DNA from: Tianweitania sediminis
GTDB taxonomy: Bacteria; Pseudomonadota; Alphaproteobacteria; Rhizobiales; Rhizobiaceae
Assembly (NCBI RefSeq): GCF_017813335.1
Contig: NZ_JAGIYY010000005.1
Span: forward strand, 124,001-188,000
DNA: 64,000 nt
Reading direction: 5' to 3'
Shown here: positions 20,571 to 48,608 of the stretch, one piece after another
Layout of the letters: each line of letters begins with the position of its first letter
Position numbering within the stretch: position 1 is the stretch's first letter
Made by a program: the position numbers and the translations under genes
Notes under the pieces: model-generated
The model's input: only the letters and a program-made list of their open reading frames with translations
What the model was told of the DNA's origin: nothing
The model's database searches: none

Positions 20571-20661
20571 TCTGCGCAGGCCCGGATGAAGCACCAACAA
20601 GTTGCGTTTCGTGCGCCGTGGCAGCATACCCTGCGGCCAGAATCCTAGCGGCAGTGTCTTC

Positions 20662-21357: not shown

Positions 21358-21427
21358 GGCTCGATACGCCGGTCAGCAGATCCTGCAACTCATCGCCTCC
21401 TAGCACTTCAGGCGGCTTCGCCCAGCG

Positions 21428-23098
21428 CTACTGCAGGCCGAAATCCGCCAGTCGCTTGTAGAGATAGGATCTCGAGATATCGAGTTCGCGCGCAACCTGC
21501 TTCTTGTTGCCGTTGAACTTCTTCAACGCGGCCGCGATAGTGTTGCGTTCAAGCTGAGCGATCTGGTCGGCCAGCGTGTTCCCCTCTCCACTTGGCACGA
21601 ACGAAGACGAAATGTCCGCGGTAGGAAAATCGTCTTGATCCCGATGGTCGATCTTGAGGTCTGCTGGTGCAATAAACCCGGTGGAATTGAAGATCGCCGC
21701 TCGTTCCAGCTGATGTTTCAATTGGCGGATGTTGCCGGGCCAGGTCCCGGTCTGCAGATACTGGACTGATTCTGTTGGAAGCTTGCAGACGTCCCGATCG
21801 TGCCGCCTTGCGAAATCCGTCAGGAACTGTTCGCTCAAGAGGGGAATGTCATCAAGACGTTCGCGCAAGGGCGGGACGCGCAGAACCACCGGGCTGATGC
21901 GATAGAAAAGATCCAGCCTGAACTGGTTCTGGGGGATCATGTCCTCCAGGTCGCGGTTTGTGGCCGACACGAGCCGGAAATCCACCTTGATGGGCTTGGT
22001 CCCGCCAAGCTTTTCCACGGAACCGTCTTGAAGCACGCGCAGCAGTTTTGCCTGCACATCCAGGGGCATGTCGCCGATCTCATCGAGAAAGAGCGTGCCG
22101 CCATTCGCCTGCTCAAACTTGCCCAGATGCCCCTTCTGGTTTGCACCGGTAAACGCGCCGGCCGAATAGCCGAACAGCTCGCTTTCTACCAAGGTCGCAG
22201 GAAGGGCGGCTGCGTTGATCATCACCATGGTCTTCATGCGGCGAGCGCTCAGCCGGTGAATGGCCTGCGCGACGAGTTCCTTGCCCACGCCGCTTTCGCC
22301 GACAATGAGCACCGGCACGTCCAAAGGAGCGACGCGCACGATGTCCTTCTTGAGGTGGATCATCTGGCTGCTTTGACCGATGATGCTGTCGAGGCTGTAG
22401 TCTTGCCGACGCATCGCTTCGGCTTCCCGCTTGTAGAACGCGACCTCGTTCTCGAGCGAATTGATGCGCTGGTTGAGCTCATCCAATTGTCGAGGACCCT
22501 TGAACATCACGCGGCCAATGGCACCAACAACTCGTCCGTCGCGAAAGATCGGCGTCCGGCTGACCACCCGATCATTCCCCTGCATTTTCTGGATGTGTCC
22601 AACCTCCGCTTTCCCGCTTTGGACGATCGTGTGCAGCCTCGTGTTCTCGATCACCTTCTGAACGGGCAGGCCGAGCGCTTCGCCGCGTCGATGGTTGAAG
22701 AACTGCTCGTGGATGGGCGAGATGAAGCGCAGGATGGCTTCATGGTCGACAACGGTCATTCCATCAAAAGGATTGCTCAGAAGGTGCTCGAAGATGTCGA
22801 AGGCGAAGTCGACCGCCGCGATGAAATCGAAAACGACGTCACCGGCACCTTCATAAAGCAGGAGAAGTGCACCGTCCTCCACCTTCCGCCACAGGACGGT
22901 CAGCTTGCGATCCTTCAACGAAAGCACGCCTAGGCGCTTGCGTTCGATTTCAGCGATCCAGTCCCGATCCGTCGCGAGGCGGCGAACCACGGCGTCGTTA
23001 CCCGAACCCGTGGCGTAGACGATCTCGCCAGCCGAGTTCAGGACAAGAAGGGATGCCGGCAGCGTCGGCTGGCCAGCAGGTGTAGTCTTGGTGGACAT
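21428..23098 (-). CDS. Sigma-54-dependent activator, PAS-AAA+-Fis architecture
   Basis: Enhancer-binding activator of 556 residues. An N-terminal region (about 1-105) without clear relatives is followed by a PAS-like sensor domain (about 105-205) and a short coiled coil (about 205-233). Then come an AAA+ domain with Walker A GESGVGKE (267-274) and the sigma-54 contact loop GAFTGA (314-319), and a C-terminal Fis-type helix-turn-helix ([20 protein letters not shown]). There is no receiver domain, so it senses a ligand directly rather than through phosphorylation, like RocR- or PrpR-type activators. ATG 23098 has AAGG upstream. It is divergent from the CoA-ester catabolic operon, whose first gene has a good -24/-12 promoter at 23181, the likely target. 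Confidence 0.92.
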
Positions 23099-23180
23099 GG
23101 AAAGCCTTTCAGTGCAGCGGAGGGATACACCGAAAGCGGTCCTTCGCAAACTGTAGCACGGGAGGCAGCGGTATAGCCTG

Positions 23181-23197
23181 TTGGCATAGGACTTGCT
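23181..23197 (+). promoter_or_regulatory. Sigma-54 promoter of the CoA-ester catabolic operon
   Basis: TTGGCATAGGACTTGCT matches the -24/-12 consensus TGGCAY-N5-TTGCW exactly, with GG and GC 10 bases apart. Transcription would start near 23208, 24 bases before the ATG of the first gene. A small dyad ACCG-AAAG-CGGT at 23129-23140 is a possible activator site, but weakly supported. Confidence 0.85.
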
Positions 23198-23231
23198 GAG
23201 TGGTCTGTGTACTCGCAAGCAAGTGACCAGC

Positions 23232-24443
23232 ATGCCCCTTAGCAACCACTCTGCCGACCTCCATGATACAAGCCAGCTGCCTTTGGCTACCTTGCCGGTT
23301 GTCAAGCCGGCTGAAGGCGTCAAGCTGCTGAACGGCGTCAAGGTGGTTGACCTCACAACCTCCATTGCCGGTCCCTACGCATCGATGTTGCTGGCTGACT
23401 TCGGGGCCGAGGTCATCAAGGTCGAGCGGCCGGAAGGAGACGATGCCAGAGGCTGGGGGCCGCCGTTTTTAAACGGAGAATCTCTGTGGTTCGCAGCCGT
23501 GAACCGCAACAAGAAGAGCGTGGTGCTTGATCTCGGCCAGGACGGGGATCGCGCTCGTTTGAAAAAACTCGTCGCCTCCGCGGACGTGTTCATTACAAAC
23601 CAACCCCCCTCGGTTCAGAAGAAGCTGGGGCTTGATCACGCCTCCATCACCGCGATGCGAGAGGACATCATCTTTACCTCGATCACCGGCTTCGGACTGG
23701 ATGGGCCGCGTGCCGACCTGACCTGCTATGATCTGATTGCGGAAGGCTATTCCGGGATCATGGATCTGACGGGTGAAGCTGGTGGTACAGCACAAAAGAT
23801 CGGCGCACCGGCAGCCGACATGCTGGCGGGGCAGGATGCTGCAATGGCAACCATGGCCGCTCTTTATGATCGCGCGCGAACCGGAACGGGCCGCCGCATC
23901 GATGTTTCGCTTGTGGAAAGCATGACACGCTTCCTGTCGTGCCGGATTGTCCCTTATCTCGGCTCTGGCGAGGTTCCTACTCGATCCGGCGGTACCGACA
24001 GCGTTATTGCCATCTACCAGGTTTTCGAAACTGCGGACGAGCCGCTCACGCTTGGCCTGGGCAACAATGCGATCTGGCAGCGTTTTTGGAGCGCATTGGG
24101 CGAGCCAGACTATGCAGCGCGACCAGAGTTTGCGAGCAATGCGTTGCGGCGCCAGCATCGGGCGGCGATCGTTGAGCGCATACAATCGATCTTGAAAACC
24201 GCACCACGCGCGCATTGGCTCTCGCTTTTCGCCGAAGCACGTGTCCCTGCGGGGCCGATCAATGGCGCCGATGCAGTGGCTGCGGACGTCGAACTGCAGC
24301 AGCGCGGCCTCTTCTACGCGCTGGACGACAATGGTCGCCTGGTTCCACAGGTAGGGCTTGGTATCCACATCGATGGTGACCCTGGCAGGGCGCGGTCGGC
24401 TCCTCCCGGGTTGGGGCAACACTCCGCGGAACTGCTGCGGTAG
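23232..24443 (+). CDS. CaiB/BaiF-type (class III) CoA-transferase
   Basis: Cytoplasmic enzyme of 403 residues that moves CoA between acyl groups. Family blocks: VVDLTTSIAGPYASMLLADF, GAEVIKVERPEGDDARGWG, NRNKKSVVLDL, and the catalytic Asp in CYDLIAEGYSG. Start ATG 23232 lies just behind the sigma-54 promoter; an upstream in-frame start would sit inside the promoter. It is the first gene of the operon and would activate the incoming acid or move CoA from a pathway product to it. A CoA ligase is also encoded two genes on, so the two may act on different acids. Substrate unknown. Confidence 0.87.
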   Translation: MPLSNHSADLHDTSQLPLATLPVVKPAEGVKLLNGVKVVDLTTSIAGPYASMLLADFGAEVIKVERPEGDDARGWGPPFLNGESLWFAAVNRNKKSVVLDLGQDGDRARLKKLVASADVFITNQPPSVQKKLGLDHASITAMREDIIFTSITGFGLDGPRADLTCYDLIAEGYSGIMDLTGEAGGTAQKIGAPAADMLAGQDAAMATMAALYDRARTGTGRRIDVSLVESMTRFLSCRIVPYLGSGEVPTRSGGTDSVIAIYQVFETADEPLTLGLGNNAIWQRFWSALGEPDYAARPEFASNALRRQHRAAIVERIQSILKTAPRAHWLSLFAEARVPAGPINGADAVAADVELQQRGLFYALDDNGRLVPQVGLGIHIDGDPGRARSAPPGLGQHSAELLR

Positions 24444-24492
24444 ATTTGCACCGGCAGCACGCCGGGTCGGAAAAAGTATGGAGGAACAGATC

Positions 24493-25272
24493 ATGACATA
24501 CAGCGAGATATTGTACGTTGAAGACGGCCCGATCGGGACGCTGACGCTCAATCGACCCGACAACGGCAACATGTTCACGGAGACCATGTGCCATGAGATC
24601 CGCGATTGCATCGAGAAGGTGCGTCGCGAAACGCGAACCCGCGTGTTGGTACTGACCGGCGCCGGCGATCGCTTCTTCTGCATCGGCGGCCAAAAGGACG
24701 GCATGGAGAAGACCAAGCTTTATGCGGGGGTTCTGCCGACACTGGAGATGTATGAGGCGATCGACCGGCTACAGAAGCCTGTGATCGCCAGCGTCAATGG
24801 TTTTGCCGTGGGCGGCGGAAACGTCCTTCAGATGGTTTGCGACCTCACCATTGCAAAGCAGAGCGCCGTGTTTCGACAGGTGGGCCCGATGATGGGGTCA
24901 TTCGATGCCGGCTATGGCACCTGGTACCTGGAAGACCTCGTCGGAAAAAAGCGCGCCAAGGAAATGTGGTACGCGAACCCGAAGATCAGCGCGGCGGAAG
25001 CCAAAGAGATGGGCCTCATCAATCGGGTGGTTCCCGATGCGGAACTGGCAGAGCGGACTCGCGAGTTCGCCCTCGAAGTTGCTGATCGCGGCGCGTTTGC
25101 GCTCGCTTCCATCAAGGGCGCCTTCAATGCCCGTCACGGCGGCGTCAGCGGCCTGTCGCGCGTCACCCATGATCTCCTTTTGTCGCAATATCTCGGCACC
25201 GAAGAAGCAGAGGAACTGAAGGAAAGCTTTGCCGGAAAGCGTAAACCCGACGCTTCGAAGTTCGGCCACTGA
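24493..25272 (+). CDS. Crotonase-family ring hydrolase, BadI/MenB-like
   Basis: Cytoplasmic crotonase-fold enzyme of 259 residues. Unlike ordinary enoyl-CoA hydratases it carries the MenB/BadI block QVGPMMGSFDAGYGTWYL (129-146, Asp138). AKEMWYANPKISAAEAKEMG and a C-terminal KRKPDASKF tail follow. BadI opens 2-ketocyclohexanecarboxyl-CoA to pimelyl-CoA; MenB closes the naphthoate ring. The catabolic neighbours favour the ring-opening reaction on a cyclic beta-keto acyl-CoA. The canonical hydratase glutamates are not present in the usual places. ATG 24493 has GGAGG at 24480; an upstream ATG at 24478 is possible. The gap from the CoA-transferase gene is 49 bases. Confidence 0.82.
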   Translation: MTYSEILYVEDGPIGTLTLNRPDNGNMFTETMCHEIRDCIEKVRRETRTRVLVLTGAGDRFFCIGGQKDGMEKTKLYAGVLPTLEMYEAIDRLQKPVIASVNGFAVGGGNVLQMVCDLTIAKQSAVFRQVGPMMGSFDAGYGTWYLEDLVGKKRAKEMWYANPKISAAEAKEMGLINRVVPDAELAERTREFALEVADRGAFALASIKGAFNARHGGVSGLSRVTHDLLLSQYLGTEEAEELKESFAGKRKPDASKFGH

Positions 25273-25282
25273 CGGTAACGTA

Positions 25283-26905
25283 ATGCGGCCTTTTCTGACC
25301 CTCCACGATCCCGCGCGCGCGGCAGCCTGGTACGAAGCCGGCCTTTGGACGAGCGACACCTTCTATTCCCTCATGGCCGATCATGCCGCAAGGCGACCGG
25401 ATGCGATCGCCCTGCGGGACGGGCATGAAGCGCTCAGTTGGGCCGAGCTCAAGCAGCGCGTCGACGCGCTTGCTGCCGACTTCGAGGATCTCGGGCTGGT
25501 GGCAGGAGACCGGGTGTCATTATGGCTATCGAACCGCCTTCACGTGCACGTGGCTTTCCTCGCCTGTTCCCGCGTCGGTATTGCTTGCAATCCGTCGCTC
25601 CATCGCACGTATACCTGCGGTGAGATCGTCGAACTGGTGACACGGCTTGGCAGCGCCGCGCTGATCACCGAAGAAGGGTGGGGCGCCGATCGCGGGAACC
25701 ACGATCTCCAGGCGATGCTCAGTGCGCTTCCTTTCATGAAGCGGGTCTACGACATCGCGGACCTTCCGCGCACCGGGCGGGAACCGTCTGGTCCTCCGCA
25801 CGCCAATCCGGATACCGTCGGGTATCTGGCTTTCACATCCGGTACGACCGGCAAGCCGAAATGCGTCATGCATTCTGCCAACACCTTGCTGGCGAACGCG
25901 CGTGACCTGGTGCGTGACTGGTCTGTTGGTGAAGACGCGGTGATCCTGTCGCTGAGCCCGCTCTCGCATCACATCGCCTGGGTGGGGGTCGGTCAATGGC
26001 TGACCAGTGGCGGCCTGTTTGTCACGGATGATCCACGTCCGGGCATGAGTCGCCTCGACTGGATCCTGGAAACAGGGGCGACCTATGTGCTGGGCGTCCC
26101 AACACATGCCATGGACATCCTGGAGGAACAAAAGAAGCGGGGCATCACTAAGCTCGGCAAGGTCGAGATGTTCTACATGGCGGGCTCTCCGATCCCCTCC
26201 GTTGTCGCAGAAGCTTTCGTTCTTCAAGGCGTGACGCCGCAGAACATCTACGGGATGACTGAAAATTCCTCTCACCAATACACCCATCCCGATGATGCCC
26301 AGGATATCTGGGTTTCGACCTGCGGGCGTGGCGGCCCCGCCTACGAAGTTGCCATCTTCGATCCTGAAAACGAGGAGCGCCGGCTTGGCCCCGGTGAAAC
26401 AGGACAGATCGGAGGACGAGGCGCCGCGCTGATGCTCGGCTACTTCGACAACCAGTCTGCCACCGAAAAAAGCTTCAACCGTCAGGGCTGGTTCATGTCC
26501 GGCGATCTTGGATCGATGGACGACCGAGGCCACCTGAAAATCGAAGGGCGGCTGAAGGACCTCATCATCAGAGGCGGCCACAACATCTATCCGTCCCGAA
26601 TCGAAGCTTTGGCCGTGTCGCACGTCAAGGTGGCAAAGGCAGCGGCCTTTCCGGTTGCGGATGAACGACTGGGCGAAAAGGTGTGCCTCGCCATCCTGGG
26701 AACAGCGGAGGCTGACGAGGTGCTGGCGCATCTGGCAGCCGAGGGGCTGTCGAAGTTCGACATGCCGGAATGGTTCCTGCGTATGGATGCGCTTCCGCTG
26801 ACACCGAGTGGCAAGATCCTGAAGCGCGAGCTGATAGCGATGGTTCAGCGCAGTGAACTGACGCCGCAGCCGGTGCGGTATGTGGCTCGTAAGGAACATG
26901 CGTGA
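25283..26905 (+). CDS. Acyl-CoA ligase (AMP-forming)
   Basis: Adenylate-forming ligase of 540 residues that activates a carboxylate with ATP and CoA. The P-loop FTSGTTGKPK (184-193), the YGMTENSS core motif, GWFMSGDLG, the hinge LIIRGGHNIYPSRIE and the C-terminal catalytic lysine region LTPSGKILKREL are all in order. The length fits cyclohexanecarboxylate- and carnitine-type ligases. ATG 25283 starts soon after the preceding stop; a 54-base upstream extension would overlap that gene. It overlaps the next gene by one base (TGATG). In this operon it would play the part of AliA of the alicyclic acid route; the true substrate is unknown. Confidence 0.9.
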   Translation: MRPFLTLHDPARAAAWYEAGLWTSDTFYSLMADHAARRPDAIALRDGHEALSWAELKQRVDALAADFEDLGLVAGDRVSLWLSNRLHVHVAFLACSRVGIACNPSLHRTYTCGEIVELVTRLGSAALITEEGWGADRGNHDLQAMLSALPFMKRVYDIADLPRTGREPSGPPHANPDTVGYLAFTSGTTGKPKCVMHSANTLLANARDLVRDWSVGEDAVILSLSPLSHHIAWVGVGQWLTSGGLFVTDDPRPGMSRLDWILETGATYVLGVPTHAMDILEEQKKRGITKLGKVEMFYMAGSPIPSVVAEAFVLQGVTPQNIYGMTENSSHQYTHPDDAQDIWVSTCGRGGPAYEVAIFDPENEERRLGPGETGQIGGRGAALMLGYFDNQSATEKSFNRQGWFMSGDLGSMDDRGHLKIEGRLKDLIIRGGHNIYPSRIEALAVSHVKVAKAAAFPVADERLGEKVCLAILGTAEADEVLAHLAAEGLSKFDMPEWFLRMDALPLTPSGKILKRELIAMVQRSELTPQPVRYVARKEHA

Positions 26906-27675
26906 TGGCGGTGACCTTGAAACGCGACGGCGATTTTGCCGTCCTCACCCTTGATCGTCCGGAAGCACTCAACGCATTGTCGTTCGCCATCATCGGGCAG
27001 ATCGGCGAAGCGCTGGATGCCGTCGCCGAAGACAGAACAGCACGGGCCCTGCTGATTACGGGAGCGGGCGACAAAGCCTTCTGCGCCGGAGCGGATATCA
27101 AGGAGCTGCGCAGCCGTTCCCTGGTCGACCAGAAGCGCGGTGCCGAACTCGGTCAGCGCGTGTTTGCGAAGCTGGACGATCTGCCGATCGCTTCGGTCGC
27201 GCTTGTGAACGGCTATGCATTCGGCGGCGGAATGGAACTGGCGCTCGCTTGCACATTCCGGCTCGCGTCTGCGAATGCGAAATTCGGCTTGCCTGAGGTC
27301 AAGCTCGGCCTCATTCCGGGTTATGGCGGCACCCAACGCTTGCCGCGCCTCGTCGGCGAAGGACGGGCTCTGGAGATGATCCTGAGCGGCCGAACTGTCG
27401 ACGCAGGGGAGGCGGAGCGGATGAACCTCGTCAACAAGCTGATCGAGGATGATCTTCTGGAGGCCGGCAAGGCGTTCGCATCGACCTTCACGCGCTACAG
27501 TCTGCCGGTTTTGAACTTCGCGCGTCGAGCAGTGCAGCGGGCTCACGACTTGCCCTTGCATGAAGGCCTGCGGGTGGAAGCGGAACTCTCGACACTCGCC
27601 TACCGCACCGCGGATGCGGAGGAGGGCATGGAAGCCTTCGAACAGAAACGCAAGCCGGAGTTCCGTGATGCCTGA
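26905..27675 (+). CDS. Enoyl-CoA hydratase/isomerase
   Basis: Crotonase-family hydratase of 256 residues. It has GAGDKAFCAGADIKEL (oxyanion hole), YAFGGGMELALAC with the first catalytic-glutamate region, and FGLPEVKLGLIPGYGGTQRLPR with the second, so unlike the neighbour at 24493 it looks like a true hydratase (BadK/PaaF-like). A GTG directly upstream could also start it, but the ATG in the TGATG overlap with the ligase is preferred. It overlaps the SDR gene by 8 bases. It would add water to the alpha-beta-unsaturated acyl-CoA made by the acyl-CoA dehydrogenase in this operon. Confidence 0.9.
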   Translation: MAVTLKRDGDFAVLTLDRPEALNALSFAIIGQIGEALDAVAEDRTARALLITGAGDKAFCAGADIKELRSRSLVDQKRGAELGQRVFAKLDDLPIASVALVNGYAFGGGMELALACTFRLASANAKFGLPEVKLGLIPGYGGTQRLPRLVGEGRALEMILSGRTVDAGEAERMNLVNKLIEDDLLEAGKAFASTFTRYSLPVLNFARRAVQRAHDLPLHEGLRVEAELSTLAYRTADAEEGMEAFEQKRKPEFRDA

Positions 27676-28372
27676 AGGGACAATCATCGTCACAGGAGCG
27701 AGCAAGGGCATCGGCGCAGCAATCGCAGCCGACCTGGCAAAGCGCGGCTACGACCTCGCCTGCTTGTCCCGGTCGGGGTCCGCTTCCGTTGGAAGCGGAT
27801 ATGCCTGTGACATGACCGACGAAACCGCCGTCAAAGAAACCTTCGCGAAGATTGCGTCGGGGAGCAGGCTGGTTGGACTGGTCAACAACGCCGGCGTTCA
27901 TCTGGGTGGCTCGACCGCAACCCTTCAAACGGCTGAGTTCGAAAAGGTCATGGCGTTGAACGCCACGGCCGTGATGGTGGCGGCGCGGGAGGTCTATCCA
28001 CACCTGAAGGCGCACGGCGGCATGATCATCAACATCGGCTCGTTCTTCGACAAGCTGGGCGTGCCGGACAACCTGGCTTACTGCGCTTCAAAGGCAGCGG
28101 TTGCCGCGATGACCCGCTGCATGGCAGTGGAATGGGCAGACGACGGCATTTCGGTCGTCAATATTGCACCGGGCTACATCGAGACGGATCTTAATCGTGA
28201 CTTCCTCGCCCGCGAAAAAGTGCGCCGCTGGATGGAAACACGGATACCCGTGAAACGGCCGGGCAGTTCCGAGGAAGTTGCGCGCCTCGTAGGCGCGGTT
28301 TTCGCCGAGCGCATCGGCTTTCTGACCGGCGAAACCATCTACATCGACGGCGGACAGGGGATGAACCACTGA
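27668..28372 (+). CDS. Short-chain dehydrogenase/reductase
   Basis: NAD(P)-dependent classical SDR of 234 residues. Cofactor motif TGASKGIG (9-16), NNAG at 73-76, catalytic Ser125, Tyr138 and Lys142 (YCASK), and the PGYIETDLN block are all present. The C-terminal end FLTGETIYIDGGQGMNH is typical of FabG/BadH-like enzymes. Start ATG 27668 overlaps the hydratase gene by 8 bases; it ends in a TGATG junction with the next gene. In the alicyclic route BadH, also an SDR, oxidises 2-hydroxycyclohexanecarboxyl-CoA to the keto ester that BadI cleaves. This gene would fill that slot. Confidence 0.88.
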   Translation: MPEGTIIVTGASKGIGAAIAADLAKRGYDLACLSRSGSASVGSGYACDMTDETAVKETFAKIASGSRLVGLVNNAGVHLGGSTATLQTAEFEKVMALNATAVMVAAREVYPHLKAHGGMIINIGSFFDKLGVPDNLAYCASKAAVAAMTRCMAVEWADDGISVVNIAPGYIETDLNRDFLAREKVRRWMETRIPVKRPGSSEEVARLVGAVFAERIGFLTGETIYIDGGQGMNH

Positions 28373-30401: not shown

Positions 30402-30413
30402 GAGGCGGATGCG

Positions 30414-33183: not shown

Positions 33184-33189
33184 ACCGGG

Positions 33190-34699: not shown

Positions 34700-34702
34700 A
34701 GA

Positions 34703-35590: not shown

Positions 35591-36573
35591 TGTCCGTTGT
35601 TGCTGAACCCAACACGATGCGCCTTCCGGAAGAACGCACCACCGGTGCAATGCCCGGCTACCACATCGCCATCTTTGCCCTGCTGCTCGGGCTAGCCTTG
35701 ATCGCCCCCTTCTTCCTTTATCCGGTGTTCCTGATGAAGGTGATGTGCTTTGCGCTGTTTGCCTGCGCCTTGAACCTGCTGCTGGGCTTCGGCGGCCTTC
35801 TGTCGTTCGGGCATGCTGCCTTTTTCGGCGGTGCGGCCTATGTGTCGGCCCATGCCGCCAAGGTCTGGGGCCTGACGCCGGAGGTCGCGATCATCCTTGG
35901 CACCTTGAGCGGCGCGCTGCTTGGCCTGGTGATCGGCAGCTTTGCCATTCGGCGGCAGGGCATCTACTTCGCCATGGTGACGCTCGCCTTTGCGCAGATG
36001 GTCTATTTTGCGGCGCTGCAGATGCCCTTCACGGGCGGCGAAGACGGCATCCAGAACGTCCCGCGCGGCGACCTGTTCGGCGTGATCAGCCTGAACTCCG
36101 ACATGTCGCTCTACTTCATGGTGCTGGCCATTGTGTTTGGCGGTCTGCTTGCGATCTACCGGATCATCCATTCGCCGTTCGGGCAGGTGCTGAAGGCAAT
36201 CCGCGAAAACGAACCGCGCGCCATCTCGCTTGGCTACCGTGTCAACAACTACAAGCTGACCGTGTTCGTGTTGTCCGCCGCTCTCGCCGGTCTTGCCGGC
36301 GCCACCAAGGCGATCGTGTTCCAGCTGGCTTCACTCACCGACGTCCACTGGTCGATGTCGGGCGAGGCGGTGTTGATGACGCTGATCGGTGGCATGGGCA
36401 CGGTGTTCGGGCCGCTTGTGGGCGCCGCGATCATCGTCACCATGCAGAACTACCTCGCGAGCCTCGGCGCCTGGGTCACCATCATCCAGGGCTTCATCTT
36501 CGTGATCGCGGTGCTCCTGTTCCGCGAAGGCGTCGTGGGCCTGATCGCCAAAAGGCTGCGCCGGCCGCTTTGA
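35590..36573 (+). CDS. Liv-type ABC permease, LivM-like
   Basis: Second permease of the importer, 327 residues, about nine hydrophobic segments after a 25-residue cytoplasmic N-terminus. Blocks typical of LivM: NLLLGFGGLLSFGHAAFFGG, RRQGIYFAMVTLAFAQMVYF, KAIRENEPRAISLGYRVNNY and LIGGMGTVFGPLVGAAI. ATG 35590 lies in a TGATG overlap with the LivH-like gene. A 75-base gap follows before the PcaC-like gene; no good promoter is seen in it. Confidence 0.92.
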   Translation: MSVVAEPNTMRLPEERTTGAMPGYHIAIFALLLGLALIAPFFLYPVFLMKVMCFALFACALNLLLGFGGLLSFGHAAFFGGAAYVSAHAAKVWGLTPEVAIILGTLSGALLGLVIGSFAIRRQGIYFAMVTLAFAQMVYFAALQMPFTGGEDGIQNVPRGDLFGVISLNSDMSLYFMVLAIVFGGLLAIYRIIHSPFGQVLKAIRENEPRAISLGYRVNNYKLTVFVLSAALAGLAGATKAIVFQLASLTDVHWSMSGEAVLMTLIGGMGTVFGPLVGAAIIVTMQNYLASLGAWVTIIQGFIFVIAVLLFREGVVGLIAKRLRRPL

Positions 36574-36648
36574 CGGCTTCGGAACGAGGAAGGCGACGCA
36601 GATTGCGCGCCGCAACAGACACAACACCAGCAGATAAGGATCTCTACA

Positions 36649-37047
36649 ATGGCTTCCGAAAGACAGCGATCGGAAAAGTTCGAGAAGGGTTTGAAGACCA
36701 GGCGAGAGGTTCTGGGCACTGACTATGTCGACAAGAGCGTCGGCGCGGCCACTGACTTCAACTGGCCCATGCAGCAGCTGGTGACCGAATATTGTTGGGA
36801 TGAGATCTGGAACCGTCCGGGTCTAGACCGCCGCAGTCGCTCCATCCTCAACCTTGGCATGATTTCCGCGTTGAACCGGCCGCATGAGCTGAAGCTTCAT
36901 ATCCGGGGTGCGTTGAACAACGGCCTGAGCCGCGAGGAGATTCGGGAAATCCTGCTTCAAGTCGCCATTTACTGCGGTGTTCCGGCTGCCATTGACAGCT
37001 TCCGGGTCGCTCAATCCGTGTTCGACGAAATAGACGGTGGCGCCTGA
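36649..37047 (+). CDS. Carboxymuconolactone decarboxylase family protein, PcaC-like
   Basis: Small protein of 132 residues, close to PcaC in length and pattern: ILNLGMISALNRPHELKLH, IRGALNNGLSREEIREILLQ, AIYCGVPAAIDSF. True PcaC removes CO2 from gamma-carboxymuconolactone in protocatechuate breakdown. No other protocatechuate gene is present here, so a similar decarboxylation or lactone reaction on another compound is likely, or a peroxidase-like role as in AhpD relatives, although the AhpD CxxC motif is absent. ATG with AAGGA upstream. The next gene starts directly after its stop. Confidence 0.82.
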   Translation: MASERQRSEKFEKGLKTRREVLGTDYVDKSVGAATDFNWPMQQLVTEYCWDEIWNRPGLDRRSRSILNLGMISALNRPHELKLHIRGALNNGLSREEIREILLQVAIYCGVPAAIDSFRVAQSVFDEIDGGA

Positions 37048-37935
37048 ATGTTCAGCAAGATCGGGTTCATTGGGCTTGGGCGCATGGGACATCCTATGGC
37101 GCGCAACTTGACGAAGGCGCGCTTTGAGGTTGTCGGCTTCGACATGAGCGAAGCTGCCCGCCATTCATTCGCGCAGGCAGGCGGGCAGGTCGGCCAAACA
37201 GTGGCCGACGTGGCCGGCAACGCCGACCTTCTCATCACGATGCTGCCCACGGGCAAGATCGTGCGCCAGGCGCTGCTTGAAGAGCCTGGTTTTGCCGCTG
37301 CCCTGCGTCCGGGTACGCTCGTGATCGACATGAGCTCATCGGCTCCAACGGACACGACAAGCCTCGCCGGAACGCTGAACCGCCAAGGCGTGACGCTGCT
37401 CGATGCGCCAGTATCCGGTGGCGTTGCAAAGGCTGTCGATGGCACACTGGCGATCCTAGTTGGCGGTGAGGAAGCCGAAGTTGAACGCGTGCGGCCTGTC
37501 CTCACGGCTATGGGGGCGTCCATCATCCACACCGGGAAAACCGGTTCAGCGCACTGCATGAAAGCGCTCAACAACTATGTTTCAGCCGCCGGCCTCGTTG
37601 CCGTCAGCGAAGCGCTGCACGTCGGAACTCAGTTCGGCCTGAACCCTGAAACCATCGTGGAAGCGCTGAACGCCTCTACGGGGCGCAACAATACCACTGA
37701 GCGAAAGGCGCTGCCGTTCATGGTGTCGCAGGCTTTCAATTCCGGCTTCGCCATGAATCTTATGGCCAAGGACATCGGCATCGCCGCTGACCTTGCTGCC
37801 GACCTGGACCTCCAGGTGGCCGAACTGGCTCTGATGGCAAGGATGTGGCGCGAAGCCTCGGAAGCGCTGGGACCAGAAGCGGATCACACCGCAATGCACC
37901 AGTTTCTGGCGGACACGATCAGACGGAAGGGTTAG
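37048..37935 (+). CDS. 3-hydroxyisobutyrate dehydrogenase-like beta-hydroxyacid dehydrogenase
   Basis: NAD(P)-dependent enzyme of 295 residues of the HIBADH/tartronate semialdehyde reductase/GarR family. The N-terminal Rossmann motif IGFIGLGRMGHPMARNL, the substrate block LDAPVSGGVAKAVDGTLAIL and the region GSAHCMKALNNYVSA with the catalytic lysine are intact. It follows the PcaC-like gene without a gap and ends the long rightward run that began at 23232. The substrate is probably a 3-hydroxy acid formed late in the pathway; the methyl-branched 3-hydroxyisobutyrate itself is possible. Confidence 0.87.
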   Translation: MFSKIGFIGLGRMGHPMARNLTKARFEVVGFDMSEAARHSFAQAGGQVGQTVADVAGNADLLITMLPTGKIVRQALLEEPGFAAALRPGTLVIDMSSSAPTDTTSLAGTLNRQGVTLLDAPVSGGVAKAVDGTLAILVGGEEAEVERVRPVLTAMGASIIHTGKTGSAHCMKALNNYVSAAGLVAVSEALHVGTQFGLNPETIVEALNASTGRNNTTERKALPFMVSQAFNSGFAMNLMAKDIGIAADLAADLDLQVAELALMARMWREASEALGPEADHTAMHQFLADTIRRKG

Positions 37936-37970
37936 AACGGTTCACTATGGCTTTTGCACCGCTCCAGCAT

Positions 37971-38762
37971 CTAGCGCGAAGGCGGCAGGTGCAAGGCTGC
38001 CACGAAGCCATCGTCCTTTTCCCTTGGCGCGGGGTAGCGCAGAAGAACCTCAGGGTCGTGCCCCGGCACGATCCGAGACGCTTCGCCTCCGATCTCCCGC
38101 AGGCGCCTGAACCCCGTCACCATCGCGCCGAGGCTGTCAACAATGCCGAACAGCCGATCCTCTTCGAAGCTTTCATAATAATGGGCAGCGTCAGAGGCGA
38201 CCACGACCGGTCCACGGGCCGTTGCCACCCGAACGAACTGCAGCCCGCGTGAATGACCACCGACCTTGAACAGCTCGATCCCGGGCATCGGGCTGGCATC
38301 ACCGTTGTGGAAGATGACCCGTTCGCCATAGACCGCTCGAACCATCTCCACGACGTCTTCGACTTCGAACGGCGCGCGAAGGGCTGGATGGCCCATGTCG
38401 CGCCCCGTGGCGAACGCCATCTCGTCGTCCTGGATGTGAAAGCGCGCGTTGGGAAACAAGGAGAAGTTTCCGGCATGATCGTAATGCAGATGCGTGACGA
38501 TGACGTTTCGGACCTTGGTCGGATCGACGTCGATCCTCGCGAAGAGCTGGGTCGGATGTTCGAGGAAGACCCGTCCCCGCTTGGCGGCTGTCTCAGGCGT
38601 GAAGCCGGTATCGATCACAACCGCCTCGCCATCATCCCGAACGGCGACCCAGATGTAATAGGCCATGTCGATATGGCCGTCATGGGGATCGGCGGTGAGA
38701 AACACGTCGGACCGCTTCCGGCCCGTCAGTTCGGCATACTTCAAAGCGTAAAGGCGGAACAT
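37971..38762 (-). CDS. Metallo-beta-lactamase-fold hydrolase, N-acyl-homoserine-lactonase family
   Basis: Cytoplasmic hydrolase of 263 residues with the dinuclear-metal motif THLHYDHAG (His91, His93, Asp95, His96), a later VGGHSRGLQFV histidine, the aspartate block VVASDAAHYYESF and a final PGHD. It resembles AttM/AiiB-like lactonases, which open lactone rings. Located between the catabolic operon and the 3-hydroxyacyl-CoA dehydrogenase gene but on the opposite strand, it could open a lactone intermediate; together with the PcaC-like protein this is suggestive. Quenching of quorum signals is the other option. The start is ATG 38762. Confidence 0.82.
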   Translation of the reverse strand: MFRLYALKYAELTGRKRSDVFLTADPHDGHIDMAYYIWVAVRDDGEAVVIDTGFTPETAAKRGRVFLEHPTQLFARIDVDPTKVRNVIVTHLHYDHAGNFSLFPNARFHIQDDEMAFATGRDMGHPALRAPFEVEDVVEMVRAVYGERVIFHNGDASPMPGIELFKVGGHSRGLQFVRVATARGPVVVASDAAHYYESFEEDRLFGIVDSLGAMVTGFRRLREIGGEASRIVPGHDPEVLLRYPAPREKDDGFVAALHLPPSR

Positions 38763-39124
38763 GACCCTGCATCTGGAAGGGGTAGTGTTTGAAGGGACGG
38801 GGTTTAACCGTTCTGCGGAAGATGTTGTTTGCCTGAGCGTGAGCAGTCAAGCCCGAACCGCTGGCGGCAGTCCTTGTTTATCGAAGACGAGAAAAGCGTG
38901 CTCCTTGGCACCAGGCTTGCATCGCGTTTGGCCAAAGAAGTGGGTGCACTCCATTTTTTCGAAAGTCATGTCGCCCATGCGGCCATCCTGTACACGGCGG
39001 CAACATCCGTCTGACCAAGCACGGACATGGCTGCGGTGAATGACCCGTCAAATAGCCGAGCGGCCGCCTTCTTCTGAAGGAATCCGGTGGCTTCATCTTG
39101 TGCTCTTGAGGAGTTGGAAGAACA
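38763..39124 (+). promoter_or_regulatory. Divergent gap of 362 bases with a sigma-54 promoter
   Basis: No gene is seen here. The plus strand holds the -24/-12 promoter at 38906-38921 (separate entry), and a leader of about 190 bases follows before the dehydrogenase gene. Two partial ACCG-N4/5-CGG elements lie upstream of the promoter and may be activator sites, but they are weak. No equivalent promoter was found for the leftward lactonase-family gene. Confidence 0.4.
38906..38921 (+). promoter_or_regulatory. Sigma-54 promoter upstream of long 3-hydroxyacyl-CoA dehydrogenase gene
   Basis: TGGCACCAGGCTTGCA is a full match to the consensus TGGCAC-N5-TTGCA. It lies in the intergenic region 204 bases before the start codon at 39125, with the predicted transcript start near 38932. 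Confidence 0.82.
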
Positions 39125-40669
39125 ATGCCTGGCCTTAAAAAGAATGCTGTTGTCGCGGTCGTCGGGGCGGGCGCTATGGGCGCCGGTATCGCGCAAGTTG
39201 CCGCCCAGGCAGGGCATGAGGTGCTTTTGTTCGACGCCGCCGAAGGCGCGGCCACGAAGGGGCGGGCCTCGATACTGGCTGCGCTGGACCGGCTGGTCGA
39301 GAAGAGCCGCCTTTCATCCGTTGAGCGAGACGCGGTCGCATCCCGGCTGATCGTCGCGCAATCGGTCCACTCTCTTGCGCCCGCACAACTGGTGATCGAA
39401 GCCATCGTAGAGAAGCTCGATGTGAAGCGGCAGGTCTTCGCCGCCTTGGAGGAAATCGTCGGAGCTGACACCGTTCTCGCCACCAACACGTCGTCCCTTT
39501 CCGTAACCGCCATTGCGGCCGGTCTGCAGCATCCGAACCGAGTGGCGGGGCTGCACTTCTTCAACCCTGCGCCTGTGATGAAGCTGGTGGAGATCGTCGC
39601 CGGCCTCGCTTCGGACAAGGGGGTGCTGGAGGTGCTGGAAGCCACGGCCCGCGACTGGGGCAAGGCGCCTGTCCATGTAACGTCCACGCCGGGCTTCATC
39701 GTCAATCGCGTGGCACGGCCGTTTTACGCGGAGGCACTTCGGCTTCTCGAGGAAGGAGCGACTGGCTGCGCCACCATCGATGCCATCATACGCGACACGG
39801 GTGGCTTCCGGATGGGGCCTTTCGAGTTGATGGATCTGATCGGCCACGACGTGAACGCGGCGGTCACGCGCTCGGTGTTCGAGGCCTATTTCTATGATCC
39901 TCGATTCAGACCCTCCCTGGTTCAACAGGAACTCGTGTCGGCCGGCTGGCTTGGCCGAAAAAGCGGTCGCGGCTTTTATGACTACAGGGACCCTTCGTCC
40001 CGCGCGGAACCAGAGGACGCTTCCGCGTCGGCGTCCTGTGACAGCGTCACCGTCGAAGGAGATTTGGGCCCCGCAGAGCCGCTCGTGGACAGCTTGAAAG
40101 CGGCCGGTGTGAAGGTCACGCGCAAAGAAGGGTCGGCAGCTTCTATCACGAGCCAGGGTGTACGGCTTGCACTGACCGATGGACGCACGGCCACTGCTAG
40201 AGTTGCTGCAGGCGAGCCGGGCGACCTGGTTCTGTTCGATCTCGCTCTCGATTACCGGGTGTCCCCGCGCATGTGCATTGCGGTAGCGGACCAAGCATCG
40301 GGCGAATGCCTGCCTGCGGCAGTCGGATTGTTAAGGGCGGCCGGAAAAACAGTGAGCGTTGTGGACGACGTTCCCGGCTTGGTGGTTTTTCGGACCCTCG
40401 CGATGCTGGTCAACGAGGCGGCCGAGGCTGTTCTTCAGGGCGTGGCATCAGCTGATGACATCGACAAGGCGATGACATTGGGCGTGAACTACCCACGCGG
40501 ACCGCTTTCCTGGGGAGATGCTGTGGGTCCGAGCCGCATCCTCGCTGGCCTGGGCGCGCTGCAGTCCGCCTACGGAGACGATCGCTATCGCGCCTCCCAG
40601 TGGCTGCGCCGACGTGCGCAGTCTGGTCGTGCCCTTATTGAAGCGAAGCAGGATCGGTCTCGTTCATGA
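39125..40669 (+). CDS. 3-hydroxyacyl-CoA dehydrogenase, long PaaC/PaaH type
   Basis: NAD-dependent enzyme of 514 residues with two 3HCDH C-terminal domains. The Rossmann motif is VAVVGAGAMGAGIAQVAAQA, the catalytic region is TNTSSLSVTAIA, and the histidine lies in AGLHFFNPAPVMKLVE, the canonical form. The first C-terminal domain ends SGRGFYDYRD (about 290); a degenerate linking domain (about 300-400) and a second C-terminal domain (AMTLGVNYPRGPLSWGD) follow, as in PaaC of phenylacetate breakdown. It has its own sigma-54 promoter. The lone protein at 30414 resembles the second half of this enzyme. It would oxidise a 3-hydroxyacyl-CoA of the opened chain. Confidence 0.9.
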   Translation: MPGLKKNAVVAVVGAGAMGAGIAQVAAQAGHEVLLFDAAEGAATKGRASILAALDRLVEKSRLSSVERDAVASRLIVAQSVHSLAPAQLVIEAIVEKLDVKRQVFAALEEIVGADTVLATNTSSLSVTAIAAGLQHPNRVAGLHFFNPAPVMKLVEIVAGLASDKGVLEVLEATARDWGKAPVHVTSTPGFIVNRVARPFYAEALRLLEEGATGCATIDAIIRDTGGFRMGPFELMDLIGHDVNAAVTRSVFEAYFYDPRFRPSLVQQELVSAGWLGRKSGRGFYDYRDPSSRAEPEDASASASCDSVTVEGDLGPAEPLVDSLKAAGVKVTRKEGSAASITSQGVRLALTDGRTATARVAAGEPGDLVLFDLALDYRVSPRMCIAVADQASGECLPAAVGLLRAAGKTVSVVDDVPGLVVFRTLAMLVNEAAEAVLQGVASADDIDKAMTLGVNYPRGPLSWGDAVGPSRILAGLGALQSAYGDDRYRASQWLRRRAQSGRALIEAKQDRSRS

Positions 40670-40706
40670 GATCGGGCGCCTTGCACGCCCTGCTATCGCG
40701 TCATCC

Positions 40707-41597
40707 ATGGTCATGAACAGCAGGCTCTCATCGCTCCTCTCGCTGACGCTGCCGGTCGTCGTGATCTGGGGACTGAATTTCGCAGTTATCCGTGTCGGGG
40801 TGGCCCATGTTGGGCCGTTCACGCTGGCTGCGCTGCGATTTGCGACAGCGTCGTTGCCGTTGCTTTGGTTCGTTGAGCGGCCCCCGGTGCCGCTCCCATT
40901 CCTGCTCAGCTACGGCCTTCTGTTCGGCGTCGCCCAATTCACCTTTCTGTTTATCGGGATGACGTGGGGCTTAGCGTCCGGCATCGCATCTCTGTTGCTC
41001 CAGTTGCAGGCCGTCTTCACGCCGTTGCTCGCTTTGCTTCTGCTTAAAGAGAACTTCACGCGTTACACAGCCAGCGCCTTGGGGCTGAGCCTCGCTGGGC
41101 TTGCGGTCATCATCTCCAGTGCCGAAGGCGATCACGGTGGTATCGCGGCGGTTCTTCTGGGCGTCAGCGCCGCCCTGTGCTGGGCTATGTCCAACGTGGT
41201 TGTTCGCTTCGGTGTGCGGAAAGGCTATTCTTACAAGCCGCTTTCGCTGGTGGTGTGGGCGAGCTTTGTTGCTGTTGGCCCTTTTGTTGTTCTTGCTTGG
41301 GCGTCGGGGGAGGATCCCGGCCTATCGTGGGAAGCCAGCGGTTCGGCTGTTCTGGCAGGGCTCTATCTCGGTATTCTGGGCACCATCGTTGCCTATGTCT
41401 TGTGGGTGCGAGCCTTGTCCTTGTTCGACGCCGGAACTGTTGCGCCATTCTCATTGCTGATCCCGATCCTGGGCTTGGCCGCGGGGGCTCTCATCTTTGG
41501 CGAAAGGCTTACAACATCTGAAATCGCTGGCAGCCTGATGATCGTTGCGGGCGTGATCATTCACATTGCTGGCACGACACGATCTCGATCACTCTGA
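40707..41597 (+). CDS. EamA-family membrane transporter
   Basis: Inner-membrane protein of 296 residues with about ten hydrophobic segments in two EamA repeats (first repeat begins VVIWGLNFAVIRVGV, second around VLLGVSAALCWAMSNVVV). It belongs to the drug/metabolite transporter superfamily, which mostly exports amino acids or metabolites. The conserved end is SLLIPILGLAAGALIFGERL. ATG 40707 or 40713 are possible starts; the frame is open far upstream but overlaps the dehydrogenase gene. It probably shares the transcript of the long dehydrogenase. Its substrate is unknown; export of a pathway by-product would fit the place. Confidence 0.8.
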   Translation: MVMNSRLSSLLSLTLPVVVIWGLNFAVIRVGVAHVGPFTLAALRFATASLPLLWFVERPPVPLPFLLSYGLLFGVAQFTFLFIGMTWGLASGIASLLLQLQAVFTPLLALLLLKENFTRYTASALGLSLAGLAVIISSAEGDHGGIAAVLLGVSAALCWAMSNVVVRFGVRKGYSYKPLSLVVWASFVAVGPFVVLAWASGEDPGLSWEASGSAVLAGLYLGILGTIVAYVLWVRALSLFDAGTVAPFSLLIPILGLAAGALIFGERLTTSEIAGSLMIVAGVIIHIAGTTRSRSL

Positions 41598-41713
41598 ATG
41601 GGCTGACCGTGCGCCAGACAGCTCAACGCGATTGTGTCGGTATTGAGGACAGGCTGAAGGCGAGCAAATGCTTGCATTGGCCAAGTTTCTGGGCCTCGTT
41701 GCGCTCCAAGAAG

Positions 41714-41729
41714 TGGCACGAGGCTTGCA
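41714..41729 (+). promoter_or_regulatory. Sigma-54 promoter of the Liv-type binding protein gene
   Basis: TGGCACGAGGCTTGCA is a full match to the -24/-12 consensus. It lies between the EamA gene and the binding-protein gene. The predicted transcript start is near 41740, about 33 bases before the ATG at 41773. It shares the last nine bases (AGGCTTGCA) with the promoter at 38906. Confidence 0.87.
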
Positions 41730-41772
41730 GAGCGTCACATGTTGCGACGACCGCATCAAACGGGAGGTTATC

Positions 41773-42993
41773 ATGATGAAAAAAACTCTAACAACGATGG
41801 CGCTGGCGGCCTGCGTGAGCCTTTCCGCTCTCACCGCATCAAGTGCTCAGACCGTGTCAGGCGATGAGGTCACGATCGGTGCGATCGTCGATATGTCTGG
41901 CGTCTACTCGGCAAATGGCGGCCAGGGAGCCGTGGTCGGCGCGCAGATGGCGATCGATGACTTCGGCGGCACGGTGCTTGGCAAGCCGATCCGGCTCCTG
42001 TCTTCCAACTACCAGAACAAGGTGGACGTCACGAACACCATCGTGCGCAGTTGGATCGACAACGACAATGTCGACATGGTGATCGAGTCGACCGACTCTG
42101 CGTCGGCGCTCGCCATCCAGGCGCTCGGAAAGGATCGCAATCGTCTCACCATCGCGGCAGGTTCTGCCACCACGGCCTTGACCAACGACGCCTGTACGCC
42201 GCTTGGCATCCACTACGTGTATGATACCTATGCCTTGGCAAATGGCACCGGCAACGCGATCCTGCGTGAAGGTGGCGACAGCTGGTACTTCGTCACGGCA
42301 GATTACGCCTTCGGTCACTCGCTGGAGCGTGACACAGGCAACGCGGTCACCCAAGGAGGTGGGACCATCCTTGGTGCTGCGCGGCATCCGCTCGGGACTG
42401 CTGACTTTTCGTCCTTCCTGCTTCAGGCACAGTCTTCCGGTTCGAAAGTCGTTGGTCTGGCCAACGCAGGCGCCGATTTCTCCAACGCCGTAAAACAGGC
42501 CGCCGAGTTCGGTATTGTTCAAGCCGGTCAGCAAATCGCCGGCATGCTCGTCTTCCTGACGGATATCAAAGCGCTGGGTCTTGAAACCGCGCAGGGGCTG
42601 ACGTTCACGACCGGTTTTTACTGGGATCTTAACGACGAAACGCGGGCATTCGCCGAGCGCTTCTTTGAACGTCACAATGCGATGCCCACGATGATTCAGG
42701 CGGGCTTCTATTCGGCCGTAACGCACTATCTCAAGGGCGTCGAGGCAACCGGCACGGACGATTCTGCAACCGTCCGCAAGTGGATGGGCGAAAACAAGAT
42801 CAACGACTTCTTCGCTAAGGATGGCTACATCCGCGAGGATGGCCGCATGATTCACACCATGTATCTTGCAAAGGTGAAAGCGCCCGAGGAATCCAAGCGT
42901 GATTGGGACTTCGCCACCATTCTTTCCGAGATTCCGGGTGAGGACGCCTATTTGAAGCCGGAAAACAGCACCTGCAGCTTGTTGAAGAAGTAA
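41773..42993 (+). CDS. Liv-type ABC periplasmic binding protein
   Basis: Periplasmic binding protein of 406 residues, family of LivK-like ligand-binding proteins. A Sec signal peptide covers about 1-30 (core MALAACVSLSALT, cut near SSA-QT). The mature start VTIGAIVDMSGVYSANGGQG, and the block VDMVIESTDSASALAIQALG, fit the subgroup that binds aromatic or other small organic acids rather than amino acids. Two ATGs in tandem (41773, 41776) follow GGGAGG. Its own sigma-54 promoter allows higher output than the membrane parts encoded at 33190-36573, which lack a binding protein and are the natural partners. Confidence 0.88.
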   Translation: MMKKTLTTMALAACVSLSALTASSAQTVSGDEVTIGAIVDMSGVYSANGGQGAVVGAQMAIDDFGGTVLGKPIRLLSSNYQNKVDVTNTIVRSWIDNDNVDMVIESTDSASALAIQALGKDRNRLTIAAGSATTALTNDACTPLGIHYVYDTYALANGTGNAILREGGDSWYFVTADYAFGHSLERDTGNAVTQGGGTILGAARHPLGTADFSSFLLQAQSSGSKVVGLANAGADFSNAVKQAAEFGIVQAGQQIAGMLVFLTDIKALGLETAQGLTFTTGFYWDLNDETRAFAERFFERHNAMPTMIQAGFYSAVTHYLKGVEATGTDDSATVRKWMGENKINDFFAKDGYIREDGRMIHTMYLAKVKAPEESKRDWDFATILSEIPGEDAYLKPENSTCSLLKK

Positions 42994-46430: not shown

Positions 46431-46490
46431 TAGTTCCTCCCAAAACCCGGCGCGAGGCCGGGTGATCTCCTCCAGATGCACGGTCTGTTA

Positions 46491-46507
46491 AGCAACCGGC
46501 ATGCCAA
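46491..46507 (-). promoter_or_regulatory. Sigma-54 promoter of the OFA-type transporter gene
   Basis: Read on the minus strand, TTGGCATGCCGGTTGCT matches TGGCAY-N5-TTGCW with correct GG-N10-GC spacing. The predicted start is near 46480, giving a leader of about 50 bases to ATG 46430. Confidence 0.85.
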
Positions 46508-46558
46508 GCAAAGGAACTGCGGGATCGCTGGTTTCGATCAGCTGATAGAGGTTCTGGA

Positions 46559-48607: not shown

Positions 48608-48608
48608 G

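Follow-up and report, generated by a model that had tools for sequence, protein, structure and literature searches.

We analysed a 64,000-nucleotide stretch of the Tianweitania sediminis genome (contig NZ_JAGIYY010000005.1, positions 124,001 to 188,000; hereafter the window, to which coordinates refer unless another locus is named). Our subject is an operon of catabolic genes (23232-36573, plus strand) that stands divergently from the gene of a sigma-54-dependent activator (21428-23365, minus strand). Downstream of the operon lie a gene for a full-length PaaH and the gene for the importer's binding protein, each with a perfect sigma-54 site upstream. We lean towards the reading that this horizontally spread, sigma-54-controlled operon breaks down an alicyclic carboxylic acid, most likely a ring-substituted one, through hydrolytic ring opening. 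The components of this reading differ in strength: a coenzyme A (CoA) ester pathway is near certain, the opening of a ring is likely, and we infer both the ring-shaped substrate and each reaction of the route. An initial annotation of the same sequence had proposed one enzyme for each step of a route of the AliA/AliB/BadK/BadH/BadI type. NCBIfam and Pfam profile scans of the window proteins, by which gene families were called, confirm the genes and families that it named, among them the Liv-type importer and the quinone-oxidoreductase-like enzyme, and the families match one candidate to every step; the gene order recurs in other genomes. In outline, that interpretation is partly supported: a sigma-54-controlled CoA pathway, with probable ring opening.

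The enzyme proposed to open the ring is the crotonase encoded at 24493-25272, which had been described as BadI/MenB-like. It stays below every curated threshold, with 235.9 (NF005637, cut-off 380) and 211.1 bits (TIGR01929, cut-off 342.7) to the MenB models and 206.1 bits to the BadI model TIGR03210 (cut-off 467.6), to which three of its orthologues score 216-228 bits. Of six comparison proteins scored with the BadI model, L026 (514.0) and L028 (477.8) pass and the other four score 378-459. We placed the protein by a maximum-likelihood tree of 73 rows, made by a quick search with Shimodaira-Hasegawa-like approximate likelihood ratio (SH-aLRT) support and subject to a long-branch warning: 30 rows of the 24493 clade (29 hand-picked orthologue loci and the query), 34 BadI-type, six MenB and three ordinary hydratases. 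Among the BadI-type rows, L026 and L028 exceed the BadI cut-off, four fall under it, and 28 are labelled by match range alone. All rows of MenB/BadI type are split at 100 from the ordinary hydratases (PaaF, PaaG and the hydratase of the window). The 24493 clade forms one branch at 99, as do the MenB rows; the BadI-type rows cohere at only 77, and the clade falls outside them. Two rows with the BadI-type label, L142 and L144, are placed next to MenB and the clade, and a third, L165, has a long branch. The clade is nearer to MenB than to BadI, although this placement comes from a quick search and involves long branches that meet.

In pairwise comparison, the 24493 protein shares 39-47% identity with 33 of the 34 BadI-type rows, 33% with the remaining one, and 38% with E. 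coli MenB; its nearest solved structures are of the MenB type (2iex). Ser136 and Asp138, the counterparts in the alignment of E. coli MenB Ser161 and Asp163, are present in 30/30 clade rows and in none of the three ordinary hydratases. We take Ser161 and Asp163, together with a Tyr, to have catalytic roles in MenB and BadI. The 24493 protein is of the MenB/BadI type, on a third branch, and a member of neither curated family. An ordinary enoyl-CoA hydratase is rejected by the split at 100 and by the Ser/Asp pair, and a MenB by the failure to reach either curated cut-off. The proposal of the initial annotation thereby survives the phylogenetic test that it had named, a placement among ordinary hydratases.

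Sigma-54 control, which the initial annotation had asserted, is shown by the conservation of sites across loci, beyond any single site. The activator has the Pfam domain Sigma54_activat and a GAFTGA loop in its translation, and its orthologues in other loci are 43-61% identical. Its true start is probably downstream of the first ATG of the open reading frame 21428-23365, because that frame overlaps the operon promoter. The sigma-54 consensus is TGGCAC-N5-TTGCW. Only two perfect sites occur in the 64 kb, one preceding 39125 and the other the binding-protein gene. Four more have a single mismatch, among them the one upstream of 23232. Two-mismatch sites in the 64 kb are no commoner than chance (44 versus a mean of 36.6). 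The whole genome (4.70 Mb in 22 contigs) holds five perfect sites, two of them in the window, against four for a reversed control pattern; a single site therefore proves little, and a wider sigma-54 regulon elsewhere in the genome is rejected on the same counts. Across loci, by contrast with shuffled sequence, a site with at most one mismatch stands upstream of the operon in 33/35 loci (0.4 expected) and of the binding-protein gene in 16/19 (0.2 expected), the window being counted in both sets. The 35 loci are those with an activator match and a placeable first gene following it, and the control was simple base shuffles; loci of one lineage are not independent, while the record titles place them in both alpha- and betaproteobacteria. 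The site upstream of PaaH is not conserved, being found in 1/25 loci, the window itself (0.3 expected). Both features of a sigma-54-dependent operon are present here, namely an activator with a sigma-54 interaction domain and a GG-N10-GC promoter.

The other three perfect sites of the genome lie before a gene that, from its translation, we take to be glutamine synthetase-like (one site) and before genes not tied to the pathway (two). A perfect site at G000:C19:96660-96675 (L120, L167) stands about 300 bases before the gene of a 334-amino-acid protein without an NCBIfam match, and may be chance. Upstream of orthologous operons a GTGTC-N9-GACAC-like dyad recurs (TGTC-N9-GACA in 12/31 regions, several from close kin), a possible binding site of the activator. 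Among the three window promoters, a copy with at most three mismatches is found only at that of the binding-protein gene (41633-41653), and the dyad was not kept as a general upstream activator site.

How widely is the operon distributed? Orthologues of the 24493 protein (81-83% identity) occur in only 3/60 relatives of the window genome, while six of the 60 have a relative with 41-43% identity and one (G056) has both kinds. In G035 and G056 the operon order is kept, without CaiB2 there. In G012 (L023, 17809-19388) the stretch has an orthologue with 82% identity but none of the other operon genes, and a lactonase-like gene lies beside it. In a scan of named genomes 220 relatives of the protein turned up, and the best 80 (78-89% identity) were retained; co-occurrence was counted in the 47 of these loci flanked by 9 kb or more on each side, and identity thresholds differ between locus comparisons. 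The recurring order, with variations, is CaiB1, the 24493 gene, ligase, hydratase, short-chain dehydrogenase/reductase (SDR), acyl-CoA dehydrogenase, split PaaH, CaiB2 and the quinone-oxidoreductase-like gene. Most constant in the 47 loci are the two halves of the split PaaH (46 each), the acyl-CoA dehydrogenase (45), ligase (44), hydratase (43) and SDR (41), followed by CaiB2 (35), CaiB1 (34), the activator and the quinone-oxidoreductase-like enzyme (25 each), PaaH (16), the binding protein (12), and the Liv ATPases (5 and 5) and permeases (4 and 2); importer orthologues lie near the operon in several loci. The operon is present in named strains of Cupriavidus, Roseovarius, Achromobacter and Paraburkholderia. 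Orthologous operons are found in many Pseudomonadota, in part on plasmids. Copies of the 24493 protein were found on 17 plasmid records, 12 from Pseudomonadota (69-82% identical) and five from Actinomycetota (53-55%); by typing, four of the 17 are conjugative, one is mobilizable and 12 are non-mobilizable. Horizontal spread of the operon is supported by the small share of the 60 relatives with an orthologue and by the 12 Pseudomonadota plasmid records. Among 385 sampled genomes of the class, the clade is present in eight (the host itself included), a BadI-range relative in 47 and both in two, a coexistence that may be undercounted as at most six candidates per genome were scored.

Variants of the operon were also seen. 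A cross-phylum module of the core crotonase, split PaaH, hydratase and CaiB genes occurs in Paraburkholderia xenovorans LB400 (L062) and on plasmid pROB02 of Rhodococcus opacus B4 (L111), with the addition of a DgcA-type racemase, two CoA-transferase subunit genes, and MFS and IclR genes. In L114 (9907-10982), a type II dehydroquinase-like gene and an adjacent DUF4286 gene lie near the operon; relatives of both are found in L075, L091 and L049, and DUF4286 relatives in eight further loci in all. Given the LB400 and R. opacus variants and the four loci with dehydroquinase-like and DUF4286 genes, the core may act on several substrates, ring-shaped or branched.

On the favoured reading, the steps would be as follows. 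The Liv-type importer would take up the acid and the ligase would form its CoA ester. CaiB2 would epimerise the alpha carbon, making both stereoisomers available to the dehydrogenase; acyl-CoA dehydrogenase, hydratase and SDR would then lead to a cyclic 3-oxoacyl-CoA, which the 24493 enzyme would open by retro-Dieckmann hydrolysis to the mono-CoA ester of a dicarboxylic acid. CaiB1 would shift the CoA to the carboxylate from which oxidation can proceed, or recharge that carboxylate from succinyl-CoA. The split and the full PaaH would continue beta-oxidation with a thiolase encoded elsewhere, and reduction of a C=C bond along the route may fall to the quinone-oxidoreductase-like enzyme.

The window encodes two CaiB-type proteins. 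The initial annotation had a racemase-like protein, which fits 31052 (CaiB2); the second CaiB protein, at 23232 (CaiB1), is of the CoA-transferase type. The best solved matches of CaiB1 are 4ed9, a CaiB/BaiF protein (237 bits), and succinate-hydroxymethylglutarate (HMG) CoA-transferase (218), with racemases at 80. In 56/56 orthologues it keeps Asp196 and has no His, with Tyr-Asp where the racemase has His-Asp. Among solved structures CaiB2 scores highest against alpha-methylacyl-CoA racemases (192 bits, versus 175 against a CoA-transferase), although in NCBIfam its best scores are to CoA-transferases, all below cut-off. Its His139 and Asp169, 30 residues apart and aligned with those of the solved racemase 8rmw, are kept in 51/51 orthologues. 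Presumably the Asp is the nucleophile of class III CoA-transferases and the His/Asp pair is catalytic in racemases. From these residues and matches, CaiB2 probably inverts an alpha carbon and CaiB1 probably moves CoA. An alpha-carbon racemase would suit a branched acyl-CoA, including a cis/trans substituted ring, and would suit methyl-branched chains equally. Intramolecular family III CoA-transferases are known (IaaL, Mct; accessible part of PMC11659651), and by analogy CaiB1 might transfer CoA within one molecule.

The 26902 hydratase is 39% identical to E. coli PaaF, the solved relatives of the quinone-oxidoreductase-like enzyme are general proteins of the medium-chain dehydrogenase/reductase (MDR) family, and no BadH model is among the matches listed for the SDR (best 25 of 224 families). 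The scans uphold both 3-hydroxyacyl-CoA dehydrogenases previously assigned, 29535-30401 and 39125-40669. The small gene 30414-31055 probably encodes the second half of a split PaaH, since among solved structures its product best matches 3mog (72.4 bits), which we take to be E. coli PaaH. No thiolase was found among the operon genes by the NCBIfam and Pfam scans; the host genome has eight Thiolase_C matches elsewhere. In the Aminobacter copy a thiolase gene follows PaaH, and near the Paraburkholderia fungorum copy a 3-oxoadipyl-CoA thiolase gene lies across a transposase gene, as would be expected for a dicarboxylic product. The solved relatives of the binding protein by sequence are 3i09 and 3n0w; its start is placed near 41773, downstream of its own promoter. 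The features are collected in Table 1.

Table 1. Genes and promoters of the region in window coordinates; for model scores, the value after "of" is the cut-off.
Feature	Position	Strand	Evidence or remark
Sigma-54-dependent activator	21428-23365	-	AAA+ domain with GAFTGA loop, Fis-type helix-turn-helix; PF00158 224.5 bits, HTH_8
Main operon sigma-54 promoter, TGGCATAGGACTTGCT	23182-23197	+	1 mismatch
CaiB1, class III CoA-transferase type	23232-24443	+	PF02515 382 bits
MenB/BadI-type crotonase, third clade; proposed ring-opening beta-ketoacyl-CoA hydrolase	24493-25272	+	NCBIfam scores, tree
Acyl-CoA ligase, class I adenylate-forming	25283-26905	+	PF00501 213 bits; AliA model 232.9 of 792.3
Enoyl-CoA hydratase, ordinary crotonase	26902-27675	+	NF004475 245.7 bits of 394
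SDR, proposed 3-hydroxyacyl-CoA dehydrogenase (BadH-like role)	27668-28372	+	PF13561 157.6 bits; YxxxK as YCASK
Acyl-CoA dehydrogenase	28372-29538	+	PF00441/02770/02771
3-Hydroxyacyl-CoA dehydrogenase, first half of split PaaH	29535-30401	+	PF02737 192, PF00725 96 bits
Probable second half of split PaaH, C-terminal 3HCDH domain	30414-31055	+	PF00725 34.7 bits
CaiB2, alpha-methylacyl-CoA-racemase type	31052-32188	+	Solved matches, His139/Asp169
PIG3-type quinone-oxidoreductase-like enzyme, MDR family	32185-33183	+	TIGR02824 234.3 of 296.8 bits
Liv-type ATP-binding cassette (ABC) importer, two ATPases	33190-33957, 33980-34699	+	
Liv-type ABC importer, two permeases	34703-35590, 35587-36573	+	
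PcaC-like gene	36649-37047	+	150.9 bits, cut-off 155.7; outside conserved set
HIBADH-like gene	37048-37935	+	Outside conserved set
Metallo-beta-lactamase-fold protein (lactonase-like)	37971-38762	-	Passenger
Perfect sigma-54 site before PaaH gene	38906-38921	+	
Full-length PaaH-type 3-hydroxyacyl-CoA dehydrogenase	39125-40669	+	TIGR02279 698.5 bits, over cut-off 669.4
EamA-family transporter	40680-41597	+	Passenger
Perfect sigma-54 site before binding-protein gene	41714-41729	+	
Periplasmic binding protein, Liv-type importer	41773-42993	+	PF13458 335.7 bits

Four genes between the operon and the binding-protein gene were dropped as pathway parts. Orthologues of the PcaC-like, HIBADH-like, lactonase-like and EamA genes were found in 2, 0, 0 and 0 of the 47 loci, counted at 40% identity or more and an E value of at most 1e-20, which is stringent for a protein as short as PcaC. 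The first three had been counted as members of the pathway; for the lactonase, the metallo-beta-lactamase fold is confirmed, and the gene lies on the minus strand and is not in the operon. More distant relatives exist: HIBADH relatives with 33-36% identity in L034 and L046, and for the lactonase-like gene one neighbour in L023 (44%). A different protein, annotated as CMD family (PcaC-type), is encoded near the Celeribacter copy (L113, 25469-26023), with relatives of 55-75% identity in L048, L046, L085, L066, L073 and L032, the L073 copy having no Pfam match at 1e-6. Further along the window, a second sigma-54 system (44781-50024, minus strand) consists of a Cache-domain histidine kinase (46610-48763) and a response regulator with a sigma-54 domain (48609-50024), and a one-mismatch sigma-54 site (46491-46506, minus strand) stands upstream of an MFS transporter gene (44781-46481). 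At 50091-55066 (minus strand), two imelysin-family proteins, a di-haem oxidoreductase (DHOR) and a DUF1513 protein are clustered, in what we assume to resemble an iron-related set.

Several observations weigh against the ring-opening reading. The column of MenB Tyr258 is occupied by Leu in 28/30 clade rows; a Tyr (Tyr233) stands one column earlier in 27/30, and gap placement could align the two. Eight positions are fixed in the clade yet unlike the shared MenB/BadI consensus, including Arg128, Lys156 and Asn162, and these three, together with Trp144 (30/30 each), lie near the catalytic motif; the reaction of the clade may therefore differ. The acyl-CoA dehydrogenase has its best curated score to no ring enzyme but to acryloyl-CoA reductase (AcrC, 317 of 640 bits), followed by cyclohexane-1-carbonyl-CoA dehydrogenase (274 of 650) and AliB (137 of 575). 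CaiB1 is absent from 13/47 loci and CaiB2 from 12/47. The LB400 and R. opacus B4 stretches carry the core without ligase, acyl-CoA dehydrogenase and SDR, and the simple five-step mapping is therefore not universal.

The main rival is that the substrates are linear branched acids. On this account, which we consider unlikely though not negligibly so, a linear, methyl-branched or isoprenoid acid is degraded, CaiB2 acts as a classical alpha-methylacyl-CoA racemase, and an acyclic 3-oxoacyl-CoA is cleaved by the 24493 enzyme through hydrolysis in place of thiolysis. The racemase type of CaiB2 agrees with it, as do the lack of a thiolase among the operon genes scanned and the acryloyl-CoA reductase score, which points to a short linear substrate. 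However, the 24493 protein groups in the tree with enzymes that make or open rings, and with eight Thiolase_C matches elsewhere in the genome that could do the thiolysis, a dedicated hydrolase would be odd. Less probable still is a hydroaromatic acid, that is, a partly hydroxylated ring such as the relatives of quinate, with dehydration and oxidation of ring hydroxyls feeding the core. The dehydroquinase-like and DUF4286 genes of L114, L075, L091 and L049 suggest such chemistry, as do the further DUF4286 relatives and the CMD-family protein near the operon in L113 and six further loci; but the dehydroquinase-like gene occurs in only four of 91 loci searched, and the presence of an acyl-CoA dehydrogenase in 45/47 loci points to a substrate whose alpha-beta bond is saturated.

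Returning to the alicyclic reading, it is tempting to go one step further. The 24493 clade might be a third functional family of the MenB/BadI type, a hydrolase dedicated to ring acyl-CoAs that are substituted or dicarboxylic, in which the clade-only Arg128 could hold a second carboxylate. It would then define an unrecognised, partly plasmid-borne, sigma-54-controlled pathway that is common in marine and soil Pseudomonadota and has core relatives in Actinomycetota, with racemase clean-up and CoA relocation built in. We offer this as a tentative proposal, somewhat short of an even chance. If true, a third family would widen the known chemistry of crotonases. Ring-containing acids are widespread, among them the naphthenic acids of oil sands and terpenoid and plant acids, and for naphthenic acid breakdown the proteins and mechanisms were stated in 2021 to be unknown (accessible part of PMC8289671). 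The operon is a candidate for an undescribed route of import and breakdown of ring carboxylic acids in many unrelated soil and marine bacteria; in the literature searched, consisting of titles and abstract openings with subscription papers mostly outside, we found no description of it. A conserved operon of some ten enzymes with a clear promoter, in named strains, is a directly testable candidate.

Among known systems, the closest in layout is the bad-ali pathway of cyclohexanecarboxylate (Rhodopseudomonas palustris, Aromatoleum sp. CIB). Both have a ligase, acyl-CoA dehydrogenase, hydratase, SDR and MenB/BadI-type hydrolase, and in both a beta-oxidation-like route would lead to a ring beta-ketoacyl-CoA. 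With the same enzyme types at each step, the operon could be an ordinary bad-ali pathway with another regulator, but we regard this as very improbable, and the R. palustris route itself, on which the initial annotation had drawn, is not upheld. The window proteins miss the cut-offs for AliA (232.9 of 792.3 bits), AliB (136.7 of 575.4) and BadI (see above), and the 24493 branch is separate from BadI. The clade and a BadI-range protein also coexist in at least three genomes, G056 (BadI over its cut-off) and G140 and G255 (BadI by match range). The known clusters are under a MarR-type regulator, BadR (accessible part of PMC9795900), whereas the window has a sigma-54 activator; no MarR family was named in the scans of genes 21428-42993, and the regulators at 20602-23365 are of the GntR/FCD and sigma-54 types. 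Unlike bad-ali, the window adds a CoA-transferase, a racemase-type protein, a split PaaH, the quinone-oxidoreductase-like enzyme and the Liv importer. LB400, which bears the core, gained growth on cyclohexanecarboxylate with a bad-ali-aab cassette (accessible part of PMC9795900), a weak argument as its copy is without three enzymes. Cyclohexanecarboxylate itself is an unlikely substrate, because bad-ali uses BadI and BadR and, more weakly, because LB400 gained growth on it with the cassette.

The mrc pathway of monoterpene ring cleavage in Castellaniella defragrans (perillyl-CoA) shares the proposed opening of a substituted ring by a BadI-type hydrolase. However, its proposed ring hydrolase MrcE is a near-copy of BadI, 88% identical to one (accessible part of PMC4109377), in contrast to the much lower identities of the 24493 protein to BadI-type rows. 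By this analogy perillate, suggested earlier as a substrate, is unlikely and a weak candidate. MenB itself shares the nearest solved structures and the Ser/Asp pair, and differs in sequence identity, in scores below its cut-offs and in the catabolic setting. That the 24493 enzyme works in the synthetic, MenB-like Dieckmann direction, the operon building a ring compound, is hardly credible: its MenB scores are slightly above its BadI score and its clade stands beside MenB in the tree, but the CoA ligase, the dehydrogenase, PaaH and a binding-protein gene with a promoter of the same type point to breakdown. The last comparison is with EchA20, the HIEC-CoA hydrolase of steroid C/D ring breakdown. 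Identity with the steroid enzyme is not upheld, and no IpdAB- or IpdC-type family was named in the scans of window genes (the SDR IpdF being outside this comparison). EchA20, a MenB-like crotonase that opens a ring by retro-Dieckmann hydrolysis, shares about 28% identity with MenB and 24% with BadI (accessible part of PMC5380842); ring opening of this kind is what we propose for the 24493 enzyme.

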